A stretch of DNA of 20,303 nucleotides from a virus, in IMG/VR virus record IMGVR_UViG_3300022927_000159, positions 1-20,303 of that record. One strand, written 5' to 3'. Below, piece by piece: positions 1 through 19,723 of the stretch. The position numbers and the translations under genes were made by a program. Position 1 is the first letter of the stretch, and each line of letters opens with the position of its first letter. The notes beneath the pieces are model-generated. The model had not been told where the DNA came from. It saw nothing but the letters and a program-made list of their open reading frames with translations, and did not search any database.

Positions 1-950
1 ATAAAAAATTTTGTATCATCTAATTGTTGTAGCTTTGGCATAATTTTATCAGCAGGTACGCCAAACCCCATTTCTTGTAAAGCTTTATTTTTTTGTGCTT
101 CATTCATACCAGCCATTATGAACTCTAAATCACCAACTTGATCTTTAACTGGGTCTTTAAATTTTTCATCAAGTTCTTCTATATATTGTGGTTGTCGCAT
201 ATTATAATTATTAGGTGCTATTCCCATTGGTAGAGTGTTAATACCAGAAGAATTTATATTAGGTTGTGCTAATTTTTTTATACCTTCATACGAAAGTTCA
301 GGTTGATTACTAAAATCAAGAAATTGTTGTTCATTTTGAGCTGCAGTGTTTGGAGTAATTCCTAAACCTTCTTTTAGACTTGCAAGTCTTTCATCAAGGT
401 CAGTCATGCTATAATCTCCATCAGCATATTTTCTATCTAAAGTATTTTGTATTGTATTAATTCTATTGAGATCAATTCTTTGTTGCCTAGCGTCATCATA
501 TTCTTGTTGAGTTCTATAACCCGTAAACTTTTCTCTAAAGTTACCAAGTGCATTATTTATATTTGTTATACCTGATTTACCTTTATTAAATAAACCAATT
601 GGTATACCTGTAGCAAAACCAAGCATTGTTTTAAATAAATTACCCAAACCACCACCTCGAGGTCTATAACCAAATTCATCTAAACCAATTGGTTTGTATT
701 TTCTACCTAAAGCAGCTGTTCTATCTCTATTAAATTTATCTATAAATCGGTTTCTGCTTCTTTCATAACTGGGTTGATTTCCACCTGTATCTCTTCCACT
801 GATACTTGGACCTAGATCATTGAAGCTTGCTCCACCAGCACTAACGTTAGGAGCTCCTTTATTAGTGGCTGCTCTTGTAGGTGTAGATACAGTTCCCATA
901 TCAGCTCCACCTTTAAAATTTCTTCTAGCAGTTATTCTTTTGTCTATCAT
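1..950 (-). CDS. Partial phage protein of unknown function, possibly a virion or ejection protein (3' end outside window)
   Basis: I translated this frame by hand. It stays open from an ATG at 950 to the window edge, giving 316 codons with no stop. The start shares one base with the stop of the nozzle gene (TAATG), and GGAAGAAG lies just upstream as a plausible ribosome-binding site. The protein begins MIDKRITARRNF and is rich in Gly, Asn and Arg up to about residue 100. Residues 99-122 form a Gly-rich hydrophobic stretch that could be membrane-active. The rest is polar, helical and Gln/Asn/Asp-rich. I do not recognise a domain. Its place after the nozzle gene, at the end of the structural operon, would suit an internal or ejection protein, but that is inference only. 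Confidence 0.8.
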   Translation of the reverse strand, partial: MIDKRITARRNFKGGADMGTVSTPTRAATNKGAPNVSAGGASFNDLGPSISGRDTGGNQPSYERSRNRFIDKFNRDRTAALGRKYKPIGLDEFGYRPRGGGLGNLFKTMLGFATGIPIGLFNKGKSGITNINNALGNFREKFTGYRTQQEYDDARQQRIDLNRINTIQNTLDRKYADGDYSMTDLDERLASLKEGLGITPNTAAQNEQQFLDFSNQPELSYEGIKKLAQPNINSSGINTLPMGIAPNNYNMRQPQYIEELDEKFKDPVKDQVGDLEFIMAGMNEAQKNKALQEMGFGVPADKIMPKLQQLDDTKFF

Positions 951-2893
951 TATCTTCTTCCATCTGGTTTTGCATCCAGTCTAAGAGTACCATAACGCCA
1001 GGTTTCTCCGACTGCATCATTTTCTATTTTAAGTGCTACTAGTCTTGCTCTTGCACGAGTATCTACTTTATCAGTAGATGAGCTAACTGTAAAGGGTCCA
1101 AGTGGAGAACTTACAGCTGTGCCATTAGGGTAATCATTAAGGATTAGAGTTATCTTAGAGTTACCTTCTAATAGTTGAAAATCAGGTATAAATCTTTTAA
1201 CTGACATAATATATTCACCATCTCCTCTAAAGTCCGCAACACCTGTTTGAGTTCCTAAAGCACTTGATCTACTTGCTATATCATAATCACCTGATTGTAT
1301 AAACGCATCAATAGAAGTTGTACCTGAACTATTAACTTGATCTACTCCTTTTTCATGTTCGTAGTAAGTAGAAGCCCCATAAGTGTTTGTAATACCTTGT
1401 ATAGGAAAATTAGGTAGCCCTGTTTTATTATATTCAGTTGCAAAGGGTAATTCAAAAACACCTTGATCTATGTAACTAGTTCTTGCAAGCGAACTCGTGG
1501 TCCATAAATTTTCTGTGTAATTATAAGTAACACACCTATCTATTTGAGAAGAACTTGCTTTAGGATAAAACCAGCTAACCTCTGTATACAAAGAATTATG
1601 TTCCGCATATACTAATTGATTTGATGTATAATTAATTCCTAAATGATCTCCATTAGTTGTAAATACAAAGTCTTCTACTAAACAAGGTATGCTTTTTACA
1701 GTACCATCAAACATAAAAAATCCACCTTCACCTGACATCCAGAATACTTTACCATCGGAATAACTTAATGCGTTCTGTCCAATCAATCCACAGTTAGTAC
1801 CAACTTGTCTTACAGAAAAAGTAAATGGTGGACCAACGAATTGAATCACATATGCAGATGTATCTGTTAAAACCAAAGTATAATCTTTACCAGATACAGC
1901 TCCAATAATTTCATTACCTTTATCAACTCTAAAAGTACCTGCAGTGTTTGTAGCTGTTGGAGCATAAGTATTAAAGTCTTCTTGATTAGAAAATCTTATA
2001 AACATAGGGTCTTGTGTTGTAGGATCACCTATAGTTGTTTCTGTTCCAAAATGAAACACGTGCCTATCTCTATCCGATACTTGAGTTAATCTTGATTTAG
2101 TAGGAGCGCCTGTCATTACTGCAGCTCTATTAGTTGTTGGATTAACCGCCCCCGCATCCCAAGTAAATGTTCTACCATTTCCAATAGTTGCAATTAATAT
2201 TTGACCAAAGTTATCTAGGCTCCAGAGGCCTGGATCTAAGGTTACATTAGTAGTTGCTCTAGGTGTGTTCCATGTACTAGTGCTCCATGTAGAGGTACCC
2301 CAACCAAAACCACCGGTTTGAAAAGTAGGGCCAACAATTTCATAAGGATTAATTGTTGCTGATCCAGTGCCGGATGTAGTTCCAGCTGAATTAGAAGGCA
2401 TTGTAATATCAAAAGTATTTGCTGTTCTATTTAAAACTTCAAAAGTATTATCTGTAAAAGCAGAGGTAGCATAACCCGATCCTGTTGGAACTGTAACCGC
2501 AGTAAATGTTACATACCTACCATTAAGTAATCCATGCGCTGTTTTATTAACAGTAACTGTTGCAGAACCGGATGTTGCATCAAAGGTAGCTCCTGTAATA
2601 ACATCATTATCTAAAGGACTGATGTCATAAAATGTATTATTAGCATATAAAAATAAACCTTGAGACGTACCAATTGCTACGTATTTTTCTCCTTTAATAG
2701 AAGTAAAAGCATGTTGTGCTCTCGCTACGCCAGGTAAAGTTAAATTACTTGAAGTTAATTGAGACCAACCTCCTATTTTTTCAGGTAAACCGTATCTAAA
2801 TCTAACAAAGTCTCCATCAATCCATTGTGATTCAGCTCCAGACTCAGTGACTTGTTTATCAAAACCAGGTTTAAAATTAAGTTTTTGTAACAT
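950..2893 (-). CDS. Tail nozzle / P22 gp10-like packaged-DNA stabilisation protein
   Basis: This 647-residue protein starts at an ATG with only a weak GGA upstream. Residues 24-43 read W-IDGDFVRFR-GLPEKIGGW, a motif I associate with the gp10-like stabilisation or nozzle proteins of podoviruses. In P22 these form the tail hub that closes the portal channel. The body is beta-rich with repeated aromatic and glycine strands, consistent with a propeller-like fold. A Thr/Gly/Ser-rich segment at about residues 100-185 looks like an inserted Ig-like domain. The size suits the family. Connector proteins lie upstream in the same transcript, although the enzyme island and the fibre genes intervene. The assignment rests on motif recall and context, not on an alignment. 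Confidence 0.7.
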   Translation of the reverse strand: MLQKLNFKPGFDKQVTESGAESQWIDGDFVRFRYGLPEKIGGWSQLTSSNLTLPGVARAQHAFTSIKGEKYVAIGTSQGLFLYANNTFYDISPLDNDVITGATFDATSGSATVTVNKTAHGLLNGRYVTFTAVTVPTGSGYATSAFTDNTFEVLNRTANTFDITMPSNSAGTTSGTGSATINPYEIVGPTFQTGGFGWGTSTWSTSTWNTPRATTNVTLDPGLWSLDNFGQILIATIGNGRTFTWDAGAVNPTTNRAAVMTGAPTKSRLTQVSDRDRHVFHFGTETTIGDPTTQDPMFIRFSNQEDFNTYAPTATNTAGTFRVDKGNEIIGAVSGKDYTLVLTDTSAYVIQFVGPPFTFSVRQVGTNCGLIGQNALSYSDGKVFWMSGEGGFFMFDGTVKSIPCLVEDFVFTTNGDHLGINYTSNQLVYAEHNSLYTEVSWFYPKASSSQIDRCVTYNYTENLWTTSSLARTSYIDQGVFELPFATEYNKTGLPNFPIQGITNTYGASTYYEHEKGVDQVNSSGTTSIDAFIQSGDYDIASRSSALGTQTGVADFRGDGEYIMSVKRFIPDFQLLEGNSKITLILNDYPNGTAVSSPLGPFTVSSSTDKVDTRARARLVALKIENDAVGETWRYGTLRLDAKPDGRR

Positions 2894-2903
2894 AAATATC
2901 CAA

Positions 2904-2962
2904 ATATTATAAAGGAGACAGCGGGTGGTATGTGGTGGTGTCCACTGCCTCCATTATAATAT
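2904..2962 (-). repeat. Long imperfect inverted repeat (18-nt arms, 23-nt loop) between oxygenase and nozzle genes
   Basis: The arms are at 2904-2921 (ATATTATAAAGGAGACAG) and 2945-2962 (CTGCCTCCATTATAATAT). In minus-strand RNA, 17 of 18 positions pair, one of them as G-U; the same position in plus-strand RNA would be A-C, so the structure favours the transcribed strand. The hairpin starts one base after the oxygenase stop and ends about ten bases before the nozzle ATG, so it fills the gap. No U-tract follows, so it is not a canonical intrinsic terminator. Each arm also contains TATAAT-like sequence. Possible roles are RNA processing, partial termination or mRNA protection. Confidence 0.8.
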
Positions 2963-2963
2963 A

Positions 2964-3581
2964 CTACCTTTTAAACCAAGATGGAAGACCTAAATGCGGT
3001 CTTTTATCAAACATATTTTCTTTGGATCCAGGAGTCTTTTTATTGTTATAATGCAAAAAAACTTGAACACATTCTTTGCCTTTAAATTTATTTCTCCAAT
3101 GCTCTAATTCACAACCAGAATAAACTAACATATCACCTTGTTTTAAATCTACTTTAATACCCTTCATACCTTCTTTACCAGATGGCTCTAAATATATAGG
3201 CCAAGGATCACCACCTAGATTCATTGTAGTAGATATCTCACAACTAAATCTATCTTTGTGTCTTTTTAATTCATCCCCTTTTTTATATATTCTTGCATAA
3301 GTATATGCTGGATATAATTTTAATCCTGTTATTTTTTCCATTTGTGGTTGACACTTTAACATTAAAGTTTCCATAGCAATATTTGCATATTGAGAGTATG
3401 TGTTTGGTATTTGTCTATCATCATAGCTTCCTATAATATTTTCAAATGGTGAAATATATCTTTGTGCTCTACAAGTATCATAAACTTGTTTTTGCATATT
3501 AAAATAGTTTGCAACAAATGCAGCTAAATCTTTTGATATAGCTTGACGAATAACTGTATATTTATTTTTTTTAAAACTCAT
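2964..3581 (-). CDS. 2OG-Fe(II) oxygenase-like protein, HxD type (cyanophage-like family)
   Basis: The protein has 205 residues and starts at an ATG overlapping the upstream stop by 4 nt. It shows a double-stranded beta-helix oxygenase pattern. The HxD iron ligands are H108 and D110 (RHKDRFSC), followed by a strand region NLGGDPWPIYLEP at 121-133. LKQGDMLVY at 146-154 leads to the distal ligand H161 in ELEHWR. Residues 169-178 (KECVQVFLHY) would carry the last strand; the usual distal Arg is not obvious. I recall this family from many marine phages. Known relatives use 2-oxoglutarate and O2 to hydroxylate a substrate, which cannot be predicted here. It is the last gene of the oxygenase run and lacks a Shine-Dalgarno sequence, so it is probably translationally coupled. 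Confidence 0.8.
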   Translation of the reverse strand: MSFKKNKYTVIRQAISKDLAAFVANYFNMQKQVYDTCRAQRYISPFENIIGSYDDRQIPNTYSQYANIAMETLMLKCQPQMEKITGLKLYPAYTYARIYKKGDELKRHKDRFSCEISTTMNLGGDPWPIYLEPSGKEGMKGIKVDLKQGDMLVYSGCELEHWRNKFKGKECVQVFLHYNNKKTPGSKENMFDKRPHLGLPSWFKR

Positions 3582-4195
3582 GTTATTTTTGTGGGGTCTA
3601 ATTTTATATTTCCAGAAACACTTATTCTTTTTTTATTTGATAAATAAAAAGGATATACTTGATGAACTAATTTTGAAGGAAACAATATAATAGTTTTTTC
3701 GTCTTCTGGCTCTAAATGATATTTTTGCTGGCAAACTGATCCTAAAATATTGGTGTAAGTAAATTCAAAAGTATTTGGACAAGGTACATTAGTTTCTCTA
3801 ACAAATTTTAATTTTTTTTCTTTTTTATAACTTGAAGGAATTTCTACCCAAACTACAAAAGATAAAACCCCTGAGTGACAATGTGATGGATTAAACTCAT
3901 ATTTATTTTGCATATTAACCCAAAACCCATCTAAAGCATAAGCACAATTTTTTGTTAAAGGATGTCCAACAATATTATTTATATCTTCCGGTGAATATTG
4001 ATCTATTAAAGAAAATAAAACATTTTTTAAAAACCAGTCATCTTTATCTTTTAAAGCAAAAGAATCTGATATATTTCCAGCTAAAGTAGCATTATATCTG
4101 TTTTTTTTATTTTTTATATAAATTTTTAATTTATTAAATGCTTCGTCATTTAATTTATCTTTAATAATTCCTGTATTTAAAAATGAATTAAACAT
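3578..4195 (-). CDS. Putative 2OG-Fe(II) oxygenase, HxH type (2OG-FeII_Oxy_5-like)
   Basis: The protein has 205 residues. Its ATG overlaps the upstream stop by 8 nt, and its own stop overlaps the next start by 4 nt. The likely metal site is H105/H107 in NPSHCHSGVLSFVVWVEIP, followed by ILFPSKLVHQVYPF with distal H178, and KKRISVSGNI with R190 as candidate 2-oxoglutarate anchor. This order (HxH, strand, FPS--H-V, then R-S-S-N) fits the TIGR02466/PF13759-type oxygenase-like proteins. The N-terminal 60 residues are Lys/Asn-rich. The coding sequence is very AT-rich, with many A and T homopolymers, unlike the capsid genes. Activity is not certain because the family has few characterised members. 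Confidence 0.72.
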   Translation of the reverse strand: MFNSFLNTGIIKDKLNDEAFNKLKIYIKNKKNRYNATLAGNISDSFALKDKDDWFLKNVLFSLIDQYSPEDINNIVGHPLTKNCAYALDGFWVNMQNKYEFNPSHCHSGVLSFVVWVEIPSSYKKEKKLKFVRETNVPCPNTFEFTYTNILGSVCQQKYHLEPEDEKTIILFPSKLVHQVYPFYLSNKKRISVSGNIKLDPTKIT

Positions 4196-4823
4196 CTTTA
4201 GCCATTTCTTTCGGTACAGCTTGTATATTCCAATGTATAAATCTAAACGGTTCTATACCATGATCGACCACATATTCATGTTCCAAGTATCCTGGAAAGA
4301 TAATTAAAGTTCCAGGTTGTACTTTACAATTAATTAATTCAGTTCCATGAAATATATCATTACTTGTTTTCATTTTTAATTTTGTAGCTCGTGCACCTGT
4401 TCTCGGTTCATGAAATACAGGATAAGAAGTTTTATCACTACATTTTAAAAAATAAAAACCTGATACATGTTGATTCCAATGTACGTGTGCTGAATGATGA
4501 CCACCACCTTTTTTAGCAAACTCTTGCACCCACATCTCACTAAACATAGTTGTGTACTGTTGCATATCAAAACCTTGCCAATCTAAAAACTCCCAAGATT
4601 TTTGACCTACATAATTTCTAAAATCTAAAAAATTATTATCCATAATTAATGGTGTTGAATGATAACTTCTTCCAAAATCTCCATGTTTTTTTATATATTC
4701 TTTTGCTTCTGGAAAATTTTTAGCTTTTTTAACATATTCATTGGAAGCTTTATTTAGAGATTTAACAAATTCAGGTTTTTGTTCTGTCCATATTGGTGTT
4801 TTAAAATATTCTTGAATAATCAT
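4188..4823 (-). CDS. Putative 2OG-Fe(II) oxygenase, HxH type
   Basis: I chose the ATG at 4823 (211 residues). The frame extends to a TTG at 4844, but that start has no ribosome-binding site and lies inside the previous gene; the ATG falls directly after the previous stop. The metal-site candidate is H113/H115 in HHSAHVHWNQHVSGFYFLK, matching the H-H---SG-YFL pattern of the PF13759-type oxygenase family. TLIIFPGYLEHEYV carries distal H182, and EPFRFIHWNI has R194 as the likely 2-oxoglutarate contact. It is a probable relative of the next downstream gene, judged by shared motif order rather than close identity. The substrate is unknown. Confidence 0.75.
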   Translation of the reverse strand: MIIQEYFKTPIWTEQKPEFVKSLNKASNEYVKKAKNFPEAKEYIKKHGDFGRSYHSTPLIMDNNFLDFRNYVGQKSWEFLDWQGFDMQQYTTMFSEMWVQEFAKKGGGHHSAHVHWNQHVSGFYFLKCSDKTSYPVFHEPRTGARATKLKMKTSNDIFHGTELINCKVQPGTLIIFPGYLEHEYVVDHGIEPFRFIHWNIQAVPKEMAKDV

Positions 4824-4824
4824 A

Positions 4825-5460
4825 TTATTTAAATGGATATCCAAGGTTCCACATTACCAATGAATATCTCGTTCCTTTCGTTACGGGTTTAACTCTATGC
4901 CAGACAAATGATGGAAAGACAATAATAGATCCTTTAGGTAATATCTCTTTTGCTTTTCTTAAATGTTGACTTTCATCTCTCATATGTGGATCATAGTTTC
5001 TAAAATCAAACTCTAACTCTCCACCTTCATATTCTGAACCATCTGTTAATTGACAAGTCATAGATAGCTTTCGAATTTTGCCGTGTTCTTCTGGATTGTT
5101 AGGTTTATCATAAGGTTTATGCCAACTATCACAGTGCCAATCATAGTATTGATTAAGTTTATATTTTGTAAATTGACAAGACTCACTTCTATCCCATTCA
5201 AAATTCCAACCAGCAGATTTATTAGCTTGATGTATGTAGGGATGTAATTCTTTATATATCCAAGTTTCACTTAACCAAACAAGATCTGAATTTCTTTTAC
5301 GTTTCATATCTTTTATTTCTTGTTTAGATAATTCTCTATCACCATATCCACCCGTTCTTGCCATAGATTCTGCTTGTGATAATCCATAATTAATTATGTC
5401 ATCACATAGTTTTGGTGGTATTGCTGAAGTAAAATACCAATAATAATTAGATATATTCAT
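4825..5460 (-). CDS. 2OG-Fe(II) dioxygenase, PKHD/prolyl-4-hydroxylase-like
   Basis: This 211-residue protein is the clearest oxygenase of the run. H109 and D111 (DWHCDSWH) form the HxD motif. They are followed by RKLSMTCQLTD at 130-140 and EYEGGELEF at 143-151, both typical of prolyl-hydroxylase-like folds. GSIIVFPSFVWHRVKPV supplies distal H188, and TKGTRYSLVMW supplies R198, the expected 2-oxoglutarate anchor ten residues on. The full catalytic set is present at normal family length, so activity is likely. The family hydroxylates peptidyl or small-molecule substrates; which one is unknown. The ATG at 5460 overlaps the upstream gene by 14 nt and has no Shine-Dalgarno sequence, implying coupling. 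Confidence 0.85.
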   Translation of the reverse strand: MNISNYYWYFTSAIPPKLCDDIINYGLSQAESMARTGGYGDRELSKQEIKDMKRKRNSDLVWLSETWIYKELHPYIHQANKSAGWNFEWDRSESCQFTKYKLNQYYDWHCDSWHKPYDKPNNPEEHGKIRKLSMTCQLTDGSEYEGGELEFDFRNYDPHMRDESQHLRKAKEILPKGSIIVFPSFVWHRVKPVTKGTRYSLVMWNLGYPFK

Positions 5461-5950
5461 AAGTTATTGTTTTAACAAAATTCAATGAATCTTTTTGATT
5501 GTTTGAGATAACATACATGTTTGTCGATGGAAACATAATGAACATATTATCTTTTAATTCTATATCCCAACTTTTTCCTTTTCTTCTATTGTTGTCATAG
5601 AATATTCGCACCATACATTCATTAGTTTTAACACCATACAATAATGTATAATCAGGTGAGTTTCGAAGATCTATTGGATCAATATTTAGTAAGGGTTGTG
5701 ATATTTGATTAGGTTTATAAATATCTCCAAATGTTTTTTTATTAACTAATTGAAAGCCATATTCTAAATTTATATGCTCACGTATATACGTATTCAACAT
5801 ATCCCAAGTTCTTGAGAATGGAAACTCTGAATTTATAAATGTCGATTGTAAAATGTCGCCTGATAGTTTATCTCGATCTATTTCAAAACCTTTAGGCATT
5901 GAAACATCACCATAGTATAAAGCTTGCTCTGTTAAAACTTTCTTTTGCAT
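5447..5950 (-). CDS. Conserved marine-phage protein, oxygenase-like but without metal ligands
   Basis: The protein has 167 residues. KNPDYT-like strands, then SWDIELKDNMFIMFPSTNMYV and a terminal TITYEY, resemble the second half of a beta-helix oxygenase. There is no HxD or HxH, and the position where FPS is normally followed by a distal His carries Asn/Tyr (STNMYVISNN). If the fold is right, this is a catalytically dead or non-metal relative. The N-terminus (VLTEQALYYGDVSMPKGFEID) recalls hypothetical proteins of cyanophages. The ribosome-binding region is unusual: GGGTGGTGGT abuts the ATG in place of an AGGAG sequence. It could act as a binding partner of the neighbouring oxygenases or as a structural protein. 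Its function is not known. Confidence 0.65.
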   Translation of the reverse strand: MQKKVLTEQALYYGDVSMPKGFEIDRDKLSGDILQSTFINSEFPFSRTWDMLNTYIREHINLEYGFQLVNKKTFGDIYKPNQISQPLLNIDPIDLRNSPDYTLLYGVKTNECMVRIFYDNNRRKGKSWDIELKDNMFIMFPSTNMYVISNNQKDSLNFVKTITYEYI

Positions 5951-5968
5951 ACCACCACCCGATATATG

Positions 5969-6418
5969 TTATGCTAGACTATTTGTCAAATCCCAGGCTT
6001 GAGTTTCTTCATTCCAGTTGTAACCCCATCTGTGAGTTCCAGCTACAGTTTGATCTTTTTGTTCTTCTGTTAATGCTGGAGCAGCACCAATTGGTGATTC
6101 CCAATTAGCAATTGTATTATTTTTTACCCAAGATGCATGTGGTTTTTTAGGCCAAAAGATTTGATCATCTTCATCCCAAGTGTAACCAATCCCTGCATAG
6201 TTTCCTCTAAACGCTGTACCACCATTAGTATGTTGATTACCTACTGTATTGTAAGATGTTTGAATCCACATTTGTGCAGGCCAATTATTATGTGTTTCTA
6301 AATATTGTTGACCTACTGATTCATCTTCAACACCATCAGCATTTAACATATTAACATTATCAAGTGTTAATACTTGAATAACTTTATTATTAGTTCCTAG
6401 TTTTGCAAAATGTGCCAT
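5969..6418 (-). CDS. Conserved Trp-rich marine-phage protein of unknown function
   Basis: The protein has 149 residues, starts MAHFAKLGTNNKVIQVL, and has an AAAGGATAA ribosome-binding site before the ATG. I recall similar proteins in cyanophages and other marine phages, always as hypotheticals. It contains nine Trp (46, 51, 81, 89, 97, 106, 131, 135, 142), several in repeated W-D or W-E settings such as YTWDEDDQIFWPKKP and GYNWNEETQAW. These suggest small beta-hairpin repeats with a (Y/F)xW core. No signal peptide, membrane segment or catalytic motif is visible. It lies directly after the halogenase gene. It may be a virion surface protein; this is inference. Confidence 0.75.
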   Translation of the reverse strand: MAHFAKLGTNNKVIQVLTLDNVNMLNADGVEDESVGQQYLETHNNWPAQMWIQTSYNTVGNQHTNGGTAFRGNYAGIGYTWDEDDQIFWPKKPHASWVKNNTIANWESPIGAAPALTEEQKDQTVAGTHRWGYNWNEETQAWDLTNSLA

Positions 6419-6435
6419 ATGTTTATCCTTTTACA

Positions 6436-7581
6436 TTATTTCTTATATTTTGTAAATATATTATATTTAAAATTTTTCTCAAGATTGTGCCATAAAATAG
6501 GTATAAAAGGAAAAGTTTTGTCTCCATTATAATCTAAATCTTTAATATGTTTTATTGTTTCTTTCCATATATTATTATTATTATTAATATGTTCATAAGT
6601 TTTTTTCTTTGCATATTTCCAAAATTTACTATCAAAATTAGAGCCTCCATGATAAGCATAACATATAAAATTTTCATATCTAATAGCCATATCATCTAAA
6701 TAATTGTTTAATTCATCTTCTGATTTATTATTATGTAAGTAATCCCAAAAGGATCTGTTTATATTGTCATACATTACACCTGAAAGAGCTTCAATAGGTT
6801 CGTAAAAAATAGCTCTATTTCCATTTTTTAAAATTCTATCTTTTAAAAAATTTTTAGCTCTATAAGGTTTAAATTTAAATTCATTTATATTTTCTTTTTT
6901 TACATCTTTATTTAAAAGATTACTTAAATCTTTTAAAGCTTCTTCGTCAGAAGTAATTTTATCATTAAAAAGATAACCCCAACCTTGTCTTGTTTGTAGA
7001 GGTATTCCAAACATCCAACCATTTTTAGTCGCTTGATGGTAGGTAAAATTCCAATCACCTGGTTTATTTATTTGATGTGCAAAACATTTATTTAAAGGAA
7101 GAGCATTACAAACATGATAATCATCATATGATTCTGGCCAACCCCTACAATCAATTATATAATCAAATTTATTTTTTAAACTTTCTAAATTTGAAACATC
7201 TTCATGTAATTCTTTAAACCTATTTTTATAAATTTCTTTACATCTTTTAAAAACAAAATCTTTTAATTTAAAATTATTAAAATGCATTGCGTAATAAGGA
7301 GGTAAAATAGGACTTGTAAAATCTATTTTTCTCCAATTTTTATATAAAACATAATATTTTATTGTTGCATCTAGTTCTTTAGAATCAAATTGAATATTAT
7401 ATTTTATAGATTCCCAAAGCAATTTAGGTAGTTGAACATTACTACTTTCACCTATTCCTAAAATTTTTTTATTAGGATTATATATGCAAGTAATTTCTGT
7501 TTTTAAGTCACCCGCATATCTTAAAAAATGACACACAGTCATTACACCGACAGTACCGGTTCCCACCACAGCAATTTTCAT
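6436..7581 (-). CDS. Flavin-dependent halogenase of the tryptophan halogenase family
   Basis: The protein has 381 residues. GTGTVG at 7-12 is the FAD-binding GxGxxG of a Rossmann fold. GIGESSNVQLP at 42-52 matches the G-GEAT-P element. K75 lies eight residues before W83 in KYYVLYKNWRK, the spacing of the catalytic Lys in PrnA. GWMFGIPL at 188-195 aligns with the signature GWxWxIP, with Phe for the second Trp. FYEPIEALSG at 259-268 matches F-EPLES-G, with E264 at the catalytic Glu and Ala for Ser. The protein is shorter than bacterial enzymes of about 530 residues. VirX1 of a cyanophage is a known viral member. The expected reaction is FADH2-, O2- and halide-dependent halogenation; a separate flavin reductase is needed and none is seen. 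The ATG has no Shine-Dalgarno sequence. Confidence 0.85.
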   Translation of the reverse strand: MKIAVVGTGTVGVMTVCHFLRYAGDLKTEITCIYNPNKKILGIGESSNVQLPKLLWESIKYNIQFDSKELDATIKYYVLYKNWRKIDFTSPILPPYYAMHFNNFKLKDFVFKRCKEIYKNRFKELHEDVSNLESLKNKFDYIIDCRGWPESYDDYHVCNALPLNKCFAHQINKPGDWNFTYHQATKNGWMFGIPLQTRQGWGYLFNDKITSDEEALKDLSNLLNKDVKKENINEFKFKPYRAKNFLKDRILKNGNRAIFYEPIEALSGVMYDNINRSFWDYLHNNKSEDELNNYLDDMAIRYENFICYAYHGGSNFDSKFWKYAKKKTYEHINNNNNIWKETIKHIKDLDYNGDKTFPFIPILWHNLEKNFKYNIFTKYKK

Positions 7582-7584
7582 ATT

Positions 7585-8886
7585 TTATTGATATTTATAT
7601 CTTATAACTACAATTCCAGATCCACCAGCAGCACCACTACCCATAAAACCAGATCCTCTAGCTGTTCCTGCTCCACCGCCACCACCAGTGTTTGCTGTTC
7701 CAGCTTGGGAAGGTGGTTCTGCTGGTGGACCATAAGCTCGTCCTCCGCCACCAGTTCCACCTAAACCATTATCATCACCTGTATGAGAACCACCGCCACC
7801 ACCGCCACCATAAGCAGTTGGTGATGCTGTGATTGAAGTAGTTGCTCCATCTCCACCGTCAGCGGGTGTTCCACCAGCTATAGTAGTTCCAACTTGTGTT
7901 GCTCCACCACCGCCACCAGAACCAGATCCTCCAGTATTAGGGGCTCCAGCACCGCCAGGAAAACCTTGAGACGGACTTACAGGAGGTGTATTACCTGCTC
8001 CTCCTGCTCCACCAGTATTAGCTCCACCACCACCTGAACCACCAGTAGCTCCAGCTCGAGGAGCTGGGTCACCTGCACCGAAACCTCCACCAGTAGAAGT
8101 TATTGTTGAAAAAACTGAATTGCCACCACTACCTGCTGCTGTAATTGTTCCACCTGGATAGCTAGTAGTGGAAAAAGTTCCAGCAGACCCACCTGCTCCA
8201 ACTGTTATTGGATAAGGTGTTGCAGTTACTGTAATTGCAGTACCACCTGGATTACCGTTAAGGGGACTTGCTGAATAACAGTCTGCAGGTCCTTTATATT
8301 CTCTGAAACCTCCAGCTCCACCACCGCCACCACCAGCTCCAGAAGCTCCACCACCGCCACCACCACCGACGACCGTATAAGAAACTATATTATTTGCAGC
8401 ACATGCAGAAGTTCCAGACACTGCAAAAGTACCAGGTCCTGTAAATTTATGAATTTTGTAATCTCCTGAAGTTGTAATTGTTCCACCTGTTGCTGTTATA
8501 AAAGTTTGAGCTCTAGCATTAGATGTTGAGTCTATTACATTTAACCAACCTTGTGTTGAATCTACATATACAAATGTAACTGATTGACCTTCTGTATTTA
8601 AAGTTGCATCAGCATTTGCTCCACCAATTTTATCTGACCCATTTGGAGATACTGTTACATTATTTGTTTGCCAAGTTGCTGCATAATCAGCTAAGGCAAC
8701 TATATCTCCAGCTGAACCTGCTGGAAGTGTTACTGTAATTGCTGCAGATGTTGTGTTAACAAAATAACCATTACCACTTACAGCAGTGAATCCTGAAGTT
8801 TTAGCTGTAGTGTCCCAAGTAACCGCTCCAATATTTTGGAAAACTCCCTGATCTATCATTGTAGTTCCGCACGATACTACTCCCAT
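7585..8886 (-). CDS. Glycine-rich tail-fibre adhesin (gp38/PGII-like)
   Basis: The protein has 433 residues, an AAAGGAGA ribosome-binding site and a TAATG overlap with the upstream fibre gene. Residues 1-125 are a Thr/Val-rich beta domain (GVFQNIGAVTWDT, ITVTLPAGSAGDIVALADY) seen on phage fibres. Residues 147-173 (KFTGPGTFAVSG, VSYTVVGGGG) begin a glycine-rich domain that runs to the C-terminus. Poly-Gly blocks at 174-193, 284-300, 318-328, 360-366, 378-382 and 401-405 are separated by short polar loops, and the protein ends SGIVVIRYKYQ. This design matches glycine-rich adhesins in which polyglycine-II helices display variable receptor-binding loops. It is therefore the best candidate host-range determinant. 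Confidence 0.82.
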   Translation of the reverse strand: MGVVSCGTTMIDQGVFQNIGAVTWDTTAKTSGFTAVSGNGYFVNTTSAAITVTLPAGSAGDIVALADYAATWQTNNVTVSPNGSDKIGGANADATLNTEGQSVTFVYVDSTQGWLNVIDSTSNARAQTFITATGGTITTSGDYKIHKFTGPGTFAVSGTSACAANNIVSYTVVGGGGGGGASGAGGGGGGAGGFREYKGPADCYSASPLNGNPGGTAITVTATPYPITVGAGGSAGTFSTTSYPGGTITAAGSGGNSVFSTITSTGGGFGAGDPAPRAGATGGSGGGGANTGGAGGAGNTPPVSPSQGFPGGAGAPNTGGSGSGGGGGATQVGTTIAGGTPADGGDGATTSITASPTAYGGGGGGGSHTGDDNGLGGTGGGGRAYGPPAEPPSQAGTANTGGGGGAGTARGSGFMGSGAAGGSGIVVIRYKYQ

Positions 8887-9590
8887 TATGAATCTCCTTT
8901 TATCTTAGATAAATTAATTTTAAATTTTTCTCCAGATATATTATTTATCATGAATATATCATCTTTTCCTTCTTGTAAAGTCCAATTACCTTTAGTTCCG
9001 TCTACCATGTTTCCTTGATTTTTAGCTTGATTAGATAAATGTAAATCCCCTGTATACAAATTTCTCCATACATTTCCCGAAGCTCCTAAGTCATAAGTGT
9101 CATTTGCTCCTGGAACAATATTTCCTGTAGCAGTTATACCTCCTGAAGTAACATCGCCAGCAGTAATGTCTCCTAAGTCAGCTGTAATATCTACAATATT
9201 AGTTCCATCAGAATATAAAATTTTATATCCTTTATCTGTAGTAGACCACGTAGCACCTGTTCCAGAAGATGTTTTAAAAGTTACTGTAAAAGCACCTGTT
9301 GTTGCATTTTCAACTAAATAAGTTTTTTCTATAGAGTCTGGAATTGTAACATTAACAGCACTTGTAATAGTTCCTGTTAATCTTAAAACTTGATTTTTAC
9401 CATTCGATAAAACACCATTTGAAAAAGTCAAGGTTGCACCGGTAGTTGCATTTAATCCTACAGCATCATACCCACCAATTGCTTGCTCAAGAATTAGTAA
9501 ATTAGTGTTAGTAAACTGTCCCCAAGTTCCTGAGTTTTCTCCAGTTTGTTGTACAGTTAATTTTAAACTAGCTGATGTTGCGTTTGCCAT
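8886..9590 (-). CDS. Tail-fibre protein with recurrent C-terminal module
   Basis: The protein has 234 residues and starts at an ATG after TAAGGAA. Residues 8-41 (LKLTVQQTGENSGTWG, LLILEQAIGGY) are an N-terminal motif found in many phage fibre-like proteins. A beta-rich middle of Thr/Gly strands follows at 45-145. Residues 156-234 are a compact module (DTYDLG-SGNVWRNLYTGD, LHLSN, TKGNWT, and a final SGEKFKINL) about 70 percent identical by eye to the C-terminus of the protein at 10361-11797. The shared end suggests a common trimerisation, assembly or attachment role. The gene is between the 22-residue-repeat protein and the adhesin, with which it overlaps by one base. Confidence 0.78.
   Translation of the reverse strand: MANATSASLKLTVQQTGENSGTWGQFTNTNLLILEQAIGGYDAVGLNATTGATLTFSNGVLSNGKNQVLRLTGTITSAVNVTIPDSIEKTYLVENATTGAFTVTFKTSSGTGATWSTTDKGYKILYSDGTNIVDITADLGDITAGDVTSGGITATGNIVPGANDTYDLGASGNVWRNLYTGDLHLSNQAKNQGNMVDGTKGNWTLQEGKDDIFMINNISGEKFKINLSKIKGDS
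8889..9125 (-). repeat. Copy 1 of a duplicated fibre C-terminal module
   Basis: This stretch encodes residues 156-234 of the 234-residue fibre. It matches the module at 10364-10585 in protein and, over much of its length, in DNA; for example, TGTCATTTGCTCCTGGAACA appears in both on the plus strand. It is either a duplicated or recombined domain, or a widespread module acquired twice. Confidence 0.85.
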
Positions 9591-9637
9591 ATTTTAAATT
9601 CCTTAAAATTTTATTTTATTCAATTTATTGTTAAAAA

Positions 9638-10354
9638 TCAAGCTACTTCCTGCCAACCTGGAGGATCGATAGGAGCACCTCCTGTGTTAACTTCTGTCCA
9701 TACTATATTTTCAACAGTATTTAATGTCATTGTCATTTCAATTCCTGTTGGCCTTGCTACTGAATCTGTAGCTGTAGCTTGACCTTCTTGCATCGTTAGA
9801 TCAAAACCAGTTAAATCTATTAAAGTATTTGCATCCAAAACAGTTGTTCCAAGAGCAGCTGTCATAGCTTCTCCAGTCAAACTAACATTTGCATCTGCAC
9901 CAATTATAACAGAGTTTTCTTGCATGGTCATTGCTTGACCAGTGACGGATATATCTGCGGTACCTGTAACAGTAACAGAACCTAAATTAGCAGACATTGC
10001 TATTCCAACCACATCTTCCGTTACAACATCTGTAAATGCTTGAGCTGTGCCTTGAGTAATAGTTAAAACTTGTCCTGTTACATCAACATTTGCAATACCT
10101 GTAATTGAAACAGAACCTAAATTAGAAGACATTGCTATCCCTGTTGGAAATGCAACAACACCTGCAAATATATCTACTGTACCTAGATTAGCAGACATTG
10201 CTATTCCAGTTACATCTTCTAATACAACATCTGTAAATGCTTGAGCTGTTCCTTCATTTAAGGTTAAATCAAAACCTGTTAATTCAACATTAACACTTGT
10301 TGAACCTGTAGCTGCAAAAGGACTTTCTGCAAAAGCTGTTATACCAAAAGCCAT
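9638..10354 (-). CDS. Virion protein made of nine 22-residue beta repeats
   Basis: The protein has 238 residues; its start lies six bases after the previous stop. Nearly the whole protein is a tandem repeat with the core TG-x-x-(M/L)-(T/S)-x-x-x-G. The core glycines are at residues 27, 50, 72, 94, 117, 139, 161, 183 and 204, spacings of 21-23. Examples are TGIAMSANLGTV, TGIAMSSNLGSV and TGQVLTITQGTA. Such regularity suggests a beta-helix or stacked beta-prism fibre. The N-terminus MAFGITAFAESPFA and the C-terminal PPGWQEVA are conserved-looking caps; I have seen similar ends in marine phage proteins. It is flanked by fibre genes, so a fibre shaft or capsid-surface fibre is likely. There is no known enzymatic motif. 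Confidence 0.75.
   Translation of the reverse strand: MAFGITAFAESPFAATGSTSVNVELTGFDLTLNEGTAQAFTDVVLEDVTGIAMSANLGTVDIFAGVVAFPTGIAMSSNLGSVSITGIANVDVTGQVLTITQGTAQAFTDVVTEDVVGIAMSANLGSVTVTGTADISVTGQAMTMQENSVIIGADANVSLTGEAMTAALGTTVLDANTLIDLTGFDLTMQEGQATATDSVARPTGIEMTMTLNTVENIVWTEVNTGGAPIDPPGWQEVA
9710..10285 (-). repeat. Nine-unit 22-codon tandem repeat array
   Basis: This is the coding repeat inside the 238-residue protein. At the DNA level, 9981-10051 and 10182-10252 are 71-nt direct repeats differing at about eight positions. They are 201 nt apart, i.e. 67 codons or three repeat units, so the array contains a larger duplicated block. Confidence 0.85.
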
Positions 10355-10360
10355 GAGCTA

Positions 10361-11797
10361 CTAAACCTCTTCTAATTTGAACTTATATTTTTTACCTGAT
10401 TTGTTATTGAATAAATAAAGATCTTCAGCACCCTCTTGAATAGTCCAATTACCTTTTGTACCATCAACTGCGTTACCTTCTTTTTTTGCTTCGTTAGATA
10501 AATGTAAGTCTCCAGTGTATAAGTTTCTCCAAACGTTTCCTGATTCACCTAAATCATAAGTGTCATTTGCTCCTGGAACAACGTGACCAGTGACATTTAA
10601 TTCTGAACCATCAAATGTTAAATTTGCTTCTGCATTCATCGCATCTGTGCCTGTTGCAGTAAGAACTCTATTATTAGAACCATTAGACATGAAGTCTGAT
10701 ACATCAACAGCGACTGTGTCTGCTGCTACATCAATACCTGTACCCGCACCAACATTAAGTGTAACAGAACCAGAAGCACCGCCTCCTGTTAAACCATTAC
10801 CAGCAGTAACCCCTGTAATGTCTCCAGTGTTAGTAGTGTAACCTGCATCATTATTAAATCCTGAATTATTAATATTTGCTTTAGTTAGTTTCTTTTGATT
10901 ATTAGAAGCATCAACTACAACAAAAAAATCTCCATCAGCGTCTGATGTAGATGTAGTTAATTCTGAAAGATCAACATCTATTTGATCTGCTTGAACATCA
11001 ATTAAGTTCCCGGCTCCAACGTTTAATGTAACATCTCCAGAAGATCCACCACCTGTTAAACCGTCTCCTGCTGTAACTGCTGTAATATCTCCAGTAGTTG
11101 GAGTTTGAAATTCTAAAGCTGTTGCACCACTGTTTACAGCTAAAACTTGGTTAGCTGTCCCAATAGCTGTTAAACCTGTACCGCCTTTTGATGTTGGCAC
11201 TGTAGGTAATCTATCTGATGATAAAGTTCCTGAAGCAACGTTTGATGCATCAAGATTTGTTAAAGCTGAACCATTTGCTGCTGGAAGTGTTGCGGGGAAT
11301 CTTGCGTCAGGCACTGTGCCCGATGCTAAATCGTCTGCGTCTAAGTTTGTTAAATTAGCACCACTAACTGCAGGAAGTGTTGCTGGGAATCTTGCATCAG
11401 GCACTGTGCCTGAAGCTAAATTATCTGCATTTAAATTTGTTAAATTAGATCCATTGTTTGCAACAATGTTTCCACTTGAATCTAGTATGACTGCTTTGGA
11501 TGCAGGAAGGGTACAGAAAACATCTTTAGTACCTGCAGAAAAATCTACCGCAGAGTCACTATTAGATGATGATAATATGGTATCTCTTGATAATGTATCA
11601 GTTGCAGCATCTGTAACTGTGCCAAGTCCAACTTCAAACTCACCATTCTCATTTACAATAGAATAATAAGTTGTATTACTGTTACCAATACCAGCAACAA
11701 AAGTTTCAAAACCTAAAACGGCCCCTGCTAAATTTATTGTGCCCGTACCTGTACTTGTAGAGGTTTCTTTTACCCTGTCATTTACAACTAGTGCCAT
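10361..11797 (-). CDS. Repeat-rich tail fibre protein
   Basis: The protein has 478 residues with an AAGGAG ribosome-binding site. Residues 1-103 (MALVVNDRVKETSTSTGTG to FCTLPASKAV) are an N-terminal domain common on phage fibres. Residues 118-207 hold three 30-residue repeats built on LTNL-A--LASGTVPDARFP, the first two almost identical. LNVGAG-containing repeats (TGDIT-VTAG-GLTGGG) occur at 235-263 and 324-352. Residues 405-478 are the C-terminal module shared with the 234-residue fibre. The layout of anchor, repetitive shaft and conserved tip or chaperone-like end is typical of a trimeric fibre. It is the first of four fibre-type genes ending in the Gly-rich adhesin. Confidence 0.82.
   Translation of the reverse strand: MALVVNDRVKETSTSTGTGTINLAGAVLGFETFVAGIGNSNTTYYSIVNENGEFEVGLGTVTDAATDTLSRDTILSSSNSDSAVDFSAGTKDVFCTLPASKAVILDSSGNIVANNGSNLTNLNADNLASGTVPDARFPATLPAVSGANLTNLDADDLASGTVPDARFPATLPAANGSALTNLDASNVASGTLSSDRLPTVPTSKGGTGLTAIGTANQVLAVNSGATALEFQTPTTGDITAVTAGDGLTGGGSSGDVTLNVGAGNLIDVQADQIDVDLSELTTSTSDADGDFFVVVDASNNQKKLTKANINNSGFNNDAGYTTNTGDITGVTAGNGLTGGGASGSVTLNVGAGTGIDVAADTVAVDVSDFMSNGSNNRVLTATGTDAMNAEANLTFDGSELNVTGHVVPGANDTYDLGESGNVWRNLYTGDLHLSNEAKKEGNAVDGTKGNWTIQEGAEDLYLFNNKSGKKYKFKLEEV
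10364..10585 (-). repeat. Copy 2 of the duplicated fibre C-terminal module
   Basis: This encodes residues 405-478 of the 478-residue fibre. It carries the same DTYDLG-SGNVWRNLYTGD core as the copy at 8889-9125 and ends SGKKYKFKLEEV. Confidence 0.85.
11177..11446 (-). repeat. Three 90-nt coding repeats in a tail fibre
   Basis: The 30-residue units start at residues 118, 148 and 178. The nearly identical DNA blocks beginning at 11283 and 11373 are exactly 90 nt apart. The third unit (ASNVASGTLSSDRLP) is diverged. Variation in unit number would change shaft length. Confidence 0.85.
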
Positions 11798-19255: not shown

Positions 19256-19723
19256 TTAATATTGATGAAGTATATCTTCGGGGTTATCGATTGTAGCTAA
19301 CACTTCATCATCATTTAGCAATCTAACTTCACCCCCGTCAATTTGTATACGGCTTCCTGCATATCTTGCAAAGACAACCCAATCACCCTTCTTGCACCAA
19401 GGTCCTTCAGGAAATTTTTCTTTGTCATAACAATGAGGTCCCATTGCTAAAACCAAACCACATTGAGATGCAACTTGTTGTTTTTCTAAAGTTTCTTGTC
19501 CAAGAATTAATCCACCTTTAGTTTTTTCTTTCATCTTGAAAGGGAGAAGTAACATTCTCCAACCAGTGGGTTGAGGTAATTTATCTGATTCTTTTGTTTT
19601 TAATCGTTCGTAAGTTTTTTGTTCTTTATCTTCGATCTTTTTATTTTCTTCTTCGTATTTGTCCGCCAAAGCATATTTAATCTTTGGGTTCTCCGAATTT
19701 GATAACTGTTCCTTTTTCGTCAT
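19256..19723 (-). CDS. Phage-encoded GroES-like co-chaperonin
   Basis: The protein has 155 residues with an AAGGAG ribosome-binding site. Residues 54-145 have the GroES order: GWRMLLLPF, then EKTKGGLIL with the hydrophobic tripeptide LIL at 72-74 in the mobile-loop position that would contact GroEL. QVASQCGLVLAMGP follows, then KKGDWVVFARYAGSRIQIDG, VRLLNDDEVLATI. Residues 1-50 are a charged helical extension absent from bacterial GroES (about 97 residues). T4 gp31 and other phage co-chaperonins help fold capsid protein with host GroEL; the head-gene context here suggests the same. No GroEL gene is present. The start lies 47 nt inside the upstream gene. Confidence 0.85.
   Translation of the reverse strand: MTKKEQLSNSENPKIKYALADKYEEENKKIEDKEQKTYERLKTKESDKLPQPTGWRMLLLPFKMKEKTKGGLILGQETLEKQQVASQCGLVLAMGPHCYDKEKFPEGPWCKKGDWVVFARYAGSRIQIDGGEVRLLNDDEVLATIDNPEDILHQY

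Follow-up and report, generated by a model that had tools for sequence, protein, structure and literature searches.

A compact flavin-dependent halogenase-type gene in a pelagiphage-like genome fragment

We describe here a gene of the flavin-dependent halogenase (FDH) type on the minus strand of IMG/VR virus record IMGVR_UViG_3300022927_000159, within a stretch of 20,303 nucleotides (positions 1 to 20,303 of the record) that we call the window. Its 381-residue product is modelled with the variant-A FDH (PF04820) fold over its full length, and it belongs to a conserved compact lineage that lacks the tryptophan-binding segment of the well-known enzymes. We favor, with a probability of roughly 0.55, the interpretation that the product is a live, lidless FDH, which would be fed FADH2 by the host and would act on a bulky or peptide-borne aromatic group. 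The features on which this interpretation draws are collected in Table 1.

Table 1. Features of the halogenase gene and its neighborhood in the window
Feature	Coordinates	Strand	Basis
Compact FDH-type gene, 381 aa	6436..7581	-	ORF, Pfam, PHROG, AF2 fold
GTGTVG (residues 7-12), FAD-binding GxGxxG	7546..7563	-	Sequence; its three Gly are conserved in all 38 compact representatives
K75, equivalent of PrnA K79	7357..7359	-	Profile alignment; K in 38/38 compact representatives
Residues 84-100, site of a ~57-residue net deletion	7282..7332	-	Profile alignment, which breaks off after PrnA 90 (domain 1) and resumes at PrnA 157 (domain 2)
GWMFGIP (188-194), altered WxWxIP, second Trp replaced by Phe	7000..7020	-	Sequence
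EPIEALSG (261-268): E264 = PrnA E346, A265 = S347, L266-S267 = halide-amide loop T348-G349	6778..6801	-	Profile alignment
Short C-terminal part after W321, 60 residues	6439..6618	-	Alignment
Gly-rich tail-type protein, its gene ending 3 bp before the halogenase start	7585..8886	-	HTVC023P homologue is gp62
Trp-rich small protein phrog_7759, 149 aa, directly downstream of the halogenase	5969..6418	-	PHROG
167-aa protein in the dioxygenase island	5447..5950	-	ORF
2OG-Fe(II) oxygenase (PF13640)	4825..5460	-	Pfam
2OG-Fe(II) oxygenase (PF13759)	4188..4844	-	Pfam
2OG-Fe(II) oxygenase family (PF13759)	3578..4195	-	Pfam
phrog_2954, PHROGs name 'ferrochelatase', predicted double-stranded beta-helix 2OG-Fe(II) dioxygenase	2964..3581	-	PHROG, model

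Fold, catalytic residues and the compact lineage

The halogenase frame is open from an ATG start, and the plus strand at this place is rich in stops. The product scores 97.4 bits against the Pfam profile PF04820 (curated cut-off 21) and matches phrog_2928, 'tryptophan halogenase', with E = 6e-78; an NCBIfam search gave no match. An AlphaFold2 model built from an alignment of 44 compact homologues has a mean pLDDT of 94.0 and a pTM of 0.93. Re-alignment of this model with VIA places SttH in the top row (Z 38.9, rmsd 3.2, 368 residues aligned), and AbeH, Th-Hal, BrvH (Z 36.5), PrnA (35.7), RebH and MibH (32.3) are among the further top rows. The best 48 rows are all variant-A FDHs (Z 38.9-29.5), followed by CndH (26.9) and CmlS (26.5). 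The identification as a flavin halogenase, made without a strand in an earlier note on this DNA, is thus far above chance by profile (PF04820, phrog_2928) and by structure (Z up to 38.9). That note had also named a structural match to non-halogenating FAD monooxygenases as a result that would overturn it. The structure comparison has FDHs in its top rows and gives no such match; no monooxygenase stands among its best 50 rows, an absence that by itself excludes nothing.

Profile alignment to PDB chains puts K75 on PrnA K79 and E264 on PrnA E346 (numbers counted from the alignment), so that both residues stand at the catalytic positions where they had been expected; the equivalence is drawn from sequence and profile alignment. 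The PrnA mutant K79A is inactive, and the mutant E346Q is ~100-fold slower (PMC5727139). Two signatures used in FDH mining depart from the canonical form, which counts against a halogenase: the WxWxIP of canonical tryptophan halogenases reads W-M-F-G-I-P, without the second Trp, and motif 3 (Fx.Px.Sx.G) reads F-Y-E-P-I-E-A-L-S-G, with Ala replacing Ser. The effect of the motif 3 Ser-to-Ala change in CHEESY1 was only moderate (PMC12645471). A literature search for W272/W274 mutants found no paper.

These alterations are a property of a lineage. At least 265 IMG/VR stretches encode relatives of the compact halogenase, and complete viral FDH frames fall into two length classes, compact (340-410 aa) and long (at least 440 aa), with no intermediates; the long FDHs collected from cellular genomes have at least 480 aa. 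An origin of the compact form in truncated ORFs was rejected because complete ORFs are bimodal in length. We compared non-redundant representatives of 38 compact, 93 long viral and 108 cellular FDHs. Every compact protein has Phe for the second Trp of WxWxIP, as do 6 of the 93 long viral proteins and none of the cellular ones. As judged from these alignments the Trp-to-Phe change marks the compact lineage and is diagnostic of it; the relatives were gathered partly with the pattern NGWMFGI, a source of bias, but Phe is also present in compact members found by other routes, namely the S-RIM14 and S-SSM7 records and loci L220, L230, L232 and L241, which came from a long-FDH query. Ala occupies the PrnA S347 position in 36/38 compact, 17/93 long viral and 33/108 cellular proteins, and on this count EPxEA is ordinary among FDHs. 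At the PrnA T348 position Leu or Ile is found in 28/38 compact proteins, in no long viral protein and in one cellular protein, the last two counts being partly biased because those samples were gathered with a pattern that includes this motif (FxEPLE[AS]). This halide-loop Thr-to-Leu change, absent from the earlier note, is distinctive. The altered GWMFGIP and EPIEA signatures are present as that note had it, but they are lineage-wide and not peculiar to this gene.

The catalytic Lys is kept in all 38 compact and all 93 long viral proteins and in 104 of the 108 cellular ones, and Glu stands at the E264 position in 33 of the 38 compact representatives. Gln, Ser or Phe replaces it in the compact FDHs of L097 (4878-5981), L220, L230, L232 and L241, where a change of activity is possible. 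The compact proteins form one clade with support 1.0 and a stem of 1.32 substitutions per site (FastTree, midpoint-rooted). Between close relatives dN/dS is 0.08-0.16, rising to 0.17-0.27 between more distant ones. A motif scan of GTDB genomes with narrow patterns gave 58 pattern matches and no compact relative. When 398 genomes of one phylum were searched by profile, 49 had FDHs; their open frames measure 496 aa or more, except for one of 390 aa, which starts at most 120 bases from a contig end and is probably cut. The compact lineage has so far been seen only in phages, with no member among the cellular genomes sampled.

The shortening, the changed motifs and the few relatives without the catalytic Glu could be those of a non-catalytic or decaying FDH remnant. 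We regard this as very improbable given the absence of intermediate lengths, ~100 intact ORFs, and purifying selection together with the invariant catalytic Lys; a dead enzyme was rejected on the last two grounds, and the earlier note's claim that the protein is not one is upheld.

Two further arrangements of viral FDHs were seen. In L059, L065, L066 and L012 a second compact FDH, ~35% identical (FLEPLEATAM, GWCFYIP; minus strand), lies nearby in the opposite orientation. In L018, a 41.8-kb viral contig, four flavin halogenases of 514, 515, 487 and 389 aa at 265-11240 are interspersed with several genes of 2OG-Fe(II) type or similar to DUF6445, and GroEL- and GroES-like genes lie downstream of this group.

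Substrate segment and halide loop

At 381 aa the protein is indeed, as had been noticed, some 150 residues shorter than its characterized relatives (PrnA 538, VirX1 531 in the PDB chain list), and much of its substrate-binding module is missing. The counterpart of PrnA 91-156 is reduced to only ~9 residues in the profile alignment. The segment from the strand after K75 to H100 has 16 residues in most compact FDHs; long viral FDHs have 56-99 there, and cellular ones 63-88. With it the tryptophan-binding segment containing the equivalents of PrnA H101 and F103, which stack the indole (PMC5659210), is absent. The part after W321 is also short (compact median 58 residues, cellular FDH median 101). 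Set against the conserved 'box' of RebH (2-98, 167-426 and 519-528; PMC5945002), the compact protein corresponds to the FAD-binding box plus a reduced remainder.

With the H101/F103 segment lost and the C-terminal module approximately halved, the compact enzyme should not clamp free tryptophan. By analogy its site would be open and would perhaps take a bulkier substrate, such as a large metabolite or an aromatic side chain within a peptide or a protein of the virion. In BrvH, whose more open site resembles that of the peptide halogenase MibH, free Trp is not halogenated (PMC5945002). In PyrH, both trimming of a loop within F144-Y166 and the Q160N exchange gave higher activity on peptide substrates (PMC9775415), and the trimmed loop is the same region as the segment lost in compact FDHs. 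Loss of the insert fits a peptide-accepting open site, though the Z of 32.3 for MibH does not discriminate peptide-acting FDHs. The earlier proposal of a divergent substrate gains support to the extent that loss of the insert points to an altered substrate site.

The FDH route of halogenation, through FAD-OOH, HOX and the catalytic Lys, is established. In the compact enzyme, host-supplied FADH2 would bind at GxGxxG and react with O2 to give FAD-OOH; halide held on the backbone amides of the L266-S267 loop would attack FAD-OOH and yield HOX. This would move along the tunnel to K75, which would deliver X+ to the aromatic ring, with E264 assisting the electrophilic attack. The missing lid would leave the site open to a bulky or peptide-borne substrate.

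The halide loop and WxWxIP also bear on the possibility that the protein is an FDH-derived flavin monooxygenase, having lost halide use and transferring oxygen rather than halogen. WxWxIP has been suggested to prevent monooxygenase activity (PMC5945002), and both the Phe found in every compact member and the Leu or Ile of the halide loop, rare elsewhere and itself a point against a halogenase together with the 5/38 compact proteins lacking Glu, would agree with such a change, as would the oxygenases encoded next door. We nevertheless judge it unlikely. K75 is invariant and E264 nearly so, and the Lys is needed for HOX chemistry in FDHs; the best structural matches are halogenases. Since backbone amides hold the halide, its binding may well survive changes of side chains, and the active enzyme BrvH carries Ser at a site of the halide loop that is Gly in RebH (PMC5945002). 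The literature search found no halogenated product or assay for any compact member.

The same geometry limits what can be said about the halide. The halide is bound by backbone amides and the crystal structure of BrvH did not explain its bromide preference (PMC5945002), so halide preference is unreadable from the motif residues of the compact proteins, and the divergent preference suggested earlier cannot be inferred from the altered residues.

Insertion site and neighboring genes

On nucleotide comparison the window is a fragment of a HTVC023P/027P-type pelagiphage, its part at 13.5-20.3 kb being 92.9% identical to HTVC027P and that at 2.9-6.5 kb 79-83% identical to HTVC023P; from these relatives the host is probably a SAR11-type bacterium. 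No halogenase match was found in the homologous region compared of either phage. The flanks of the window gene meet at one point in HTVC023P (L024), window 6090-6468 corresponding to 8670-9050 and 7578-7630 to 9043-9095. The alignment thus presents the halogenase as a one-gene cargo insertion relative to HTVC023P, between the gp62 and gp63 homologues. At 19256-19723 (minus) the window has a gene in place of HTVC027P gp55, annotated co-chaperone GroES.

Ten genes that follow one another in the same direction between 9590 and 950, either overlapping or separated by small gaps, make up a late tail operon that includes the halogenase. A promoter and terminator scan gave site counts no higher than in shuffles, and no gene of the window was recognized as encoding a flavin reductase. 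Downstream lie four genes of the 2OG-Fe(II) dioxygenase type. The model of the phrog_2954 product (pLDDT 93.4) matches a prolyl-4-hydroxylase with a Foldseek E of 1.6e-9 and aligns with SnoN, PHD2 and P4H at Z 15-16 (VIA); its H108-x-D110...H161 triad is invariant in 24 sequences. It is predicted to be a DSBH 2OG-Fe(II) dioxygenase with an HxD...H triad, and the name 'ferrochelatase' looks wrong. Ferrochelatase partners have been reported in HTVC023P-type phages (PMC9599517). In the 167-aa protein no H-x-D/E motif was found; by eye its C-terminal segment is like that of the neighboring dioxygenases, to which it may be related while lacking the metal.

A 2OG-type gene lies at most four genes from the FDH at 88/101 compact loci (87%) and 88/110 long viral loci, vs 6/83 cellular loci (7%). 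The background rate among genes at least six genes away in viral loci is 187/402 (47%), so the enrichment near viral FDHs, though real, is modest in loci that are rich in dioxygenases throughout. DUF6445 proteins, which match 2OG-Fe(II) families weakly as well, are encoded in the vicinity of phage FDHs in L037 (4371-5051) and L018 (3916-4551). In L048 the island shared with a compact FDH also holds a carbamoyltransferase (PF16861/PF02543; 9492-10964) and a member of a 237-aa family (10967-11677), both on the minus strand.

The lidless halogenase that we favor would be made in the late tail operon together with the 2OG-Fe(II) dioxygenases, as one cassette of an oxidative-tailoring island. Its immediate downstream neighbor, the phrog_7759 protein, has 9 Trp in its 149 residues and is a candidate substrate. 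Its family, widespread beside tail genes, averages 5.0% Trp vs 1.7% for all genes, with five Trp positions 88-98% conserved in 42 sequences. The protein is equally Trp-rich in HTVC023P, which has no halogenase in this region, and Trp composition is therefore no evidence for a pairing. That phage-exclusive lidless FDHs and co-encoded dioxygenases modify tail-region proteins after translation, for instance at the conserved Trp of phrog_7759, is an extension we hold doubtful; if true, it would be a natural viral protein-halogenation system.

A different role is that of a small-molecule auxiliary metabolic gene, halogenating a host or phage metabolite during infection. Cyanophage halogenases have been viewed in this way (PMC10452541), the compact relatives of S-SSM5, S-MS29 and S-SSM7 sit among replication and metabolism genes, and the carbamoyltransferase of L048 would suit small-molecule tailoring. 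We consider this role possible, at clearly less than even odds, as the window gene sits in a tail-gene operon and not among metabolism genes, and as the known clamp for free Trp is lost.

Relation to known halogenases

Phage FDHs, short ones included, are already known: a table published in 2010 lists short cyanophage genes of 1104-1167 nt under the name PrnA (PMC3037559). The compact lineage is real and conserved, and the literature search found no paper treating the compact phage class as distinct. To our knowledge, a natural FDH of ~380 residues without the substrate insert would be the smallest FDH core. It would offer a direct test of whether catalysis itself requires the substrate module or whether the module serves only to select the substrate, and could start work on peptide or protein halogenation. 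Phage-confined halogenases in dioxygenase islands near tail genes would mean that a whole oxidative-tailoring chemistry travels with marine phages.

The closest known genes are the 'tryptophan halogenases' of T4-like cyanophages, which belong to the same compact lineage (S-SSM5 and S-MS29, 388 aa; S-SSM7, 367 aa; S-RIM14, 359 aa). Like the window gene they are short and have GWxF and the K75 equivalent, and S-SSM5 and S-MS29 are ~41-43% identical to it. They differ in host and phage type; in S-SSM5, S-MS29 and S-SSM7 the surroundings are replication, photosynthesis or metabolism genes, and S-SSM7 has Gln at the E264 position. The HTVC023P/HTVC027P-type pelagiphages supply the backbone of the window but have no halogenase in the homologous region, gp62 adjoining gp63 at the empty site of HTVC023P.

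The cyanophage enzyme VirX1, to which the earlier note had likened the protein, shares with the compact form its phage origin, the fold, the Lys and the Glu. We identified it in Cyanophage Syn10 (L095, 5986-7578) by its 530-aa length and the STLGHF and YPFGP segments printed in PMC8269204; in Syn10 it forms a tandem pair with another long FDH. A broad, iodide-preferring halogenase of the VirX1 kind is suggested by an open or enlarged site, described for VirX1 (PMC8407142) and predicted for the compact phage FDH, yet we find it improbable. VirX1 is full-length, has the canonical motifs GWVWNIP and FIEPLESTG, and groups with long viral FDHs in a clade (support 1.0) made up of 75 of these and one cellular FDH, with all 38 compact proteins outside. 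In the structural comparison it is only row 48 (Z 29.5, VIA, halogenase model), and no residue examined links the changes to iodide. The likeness is not borne out.

PrnA, RebH and SttH have the fold, GxGxxG and the catalytic Lys and Glu in common with the compact protein, but are ~150 residues longer, with the Trp-binding insert and C-terminal module in place and WxWxIP and EPLESTG intact. BrvH and MibH, the latter acting on a lanthipeptide, share the idea of an open site and match the model at Z 36.5 and 32.3; the second halide-amide position is Ser in BrvH as well as in the compact protein. Both are nevertheless full-length at more than 490 residues, and BrvH keeps WxWxIP.
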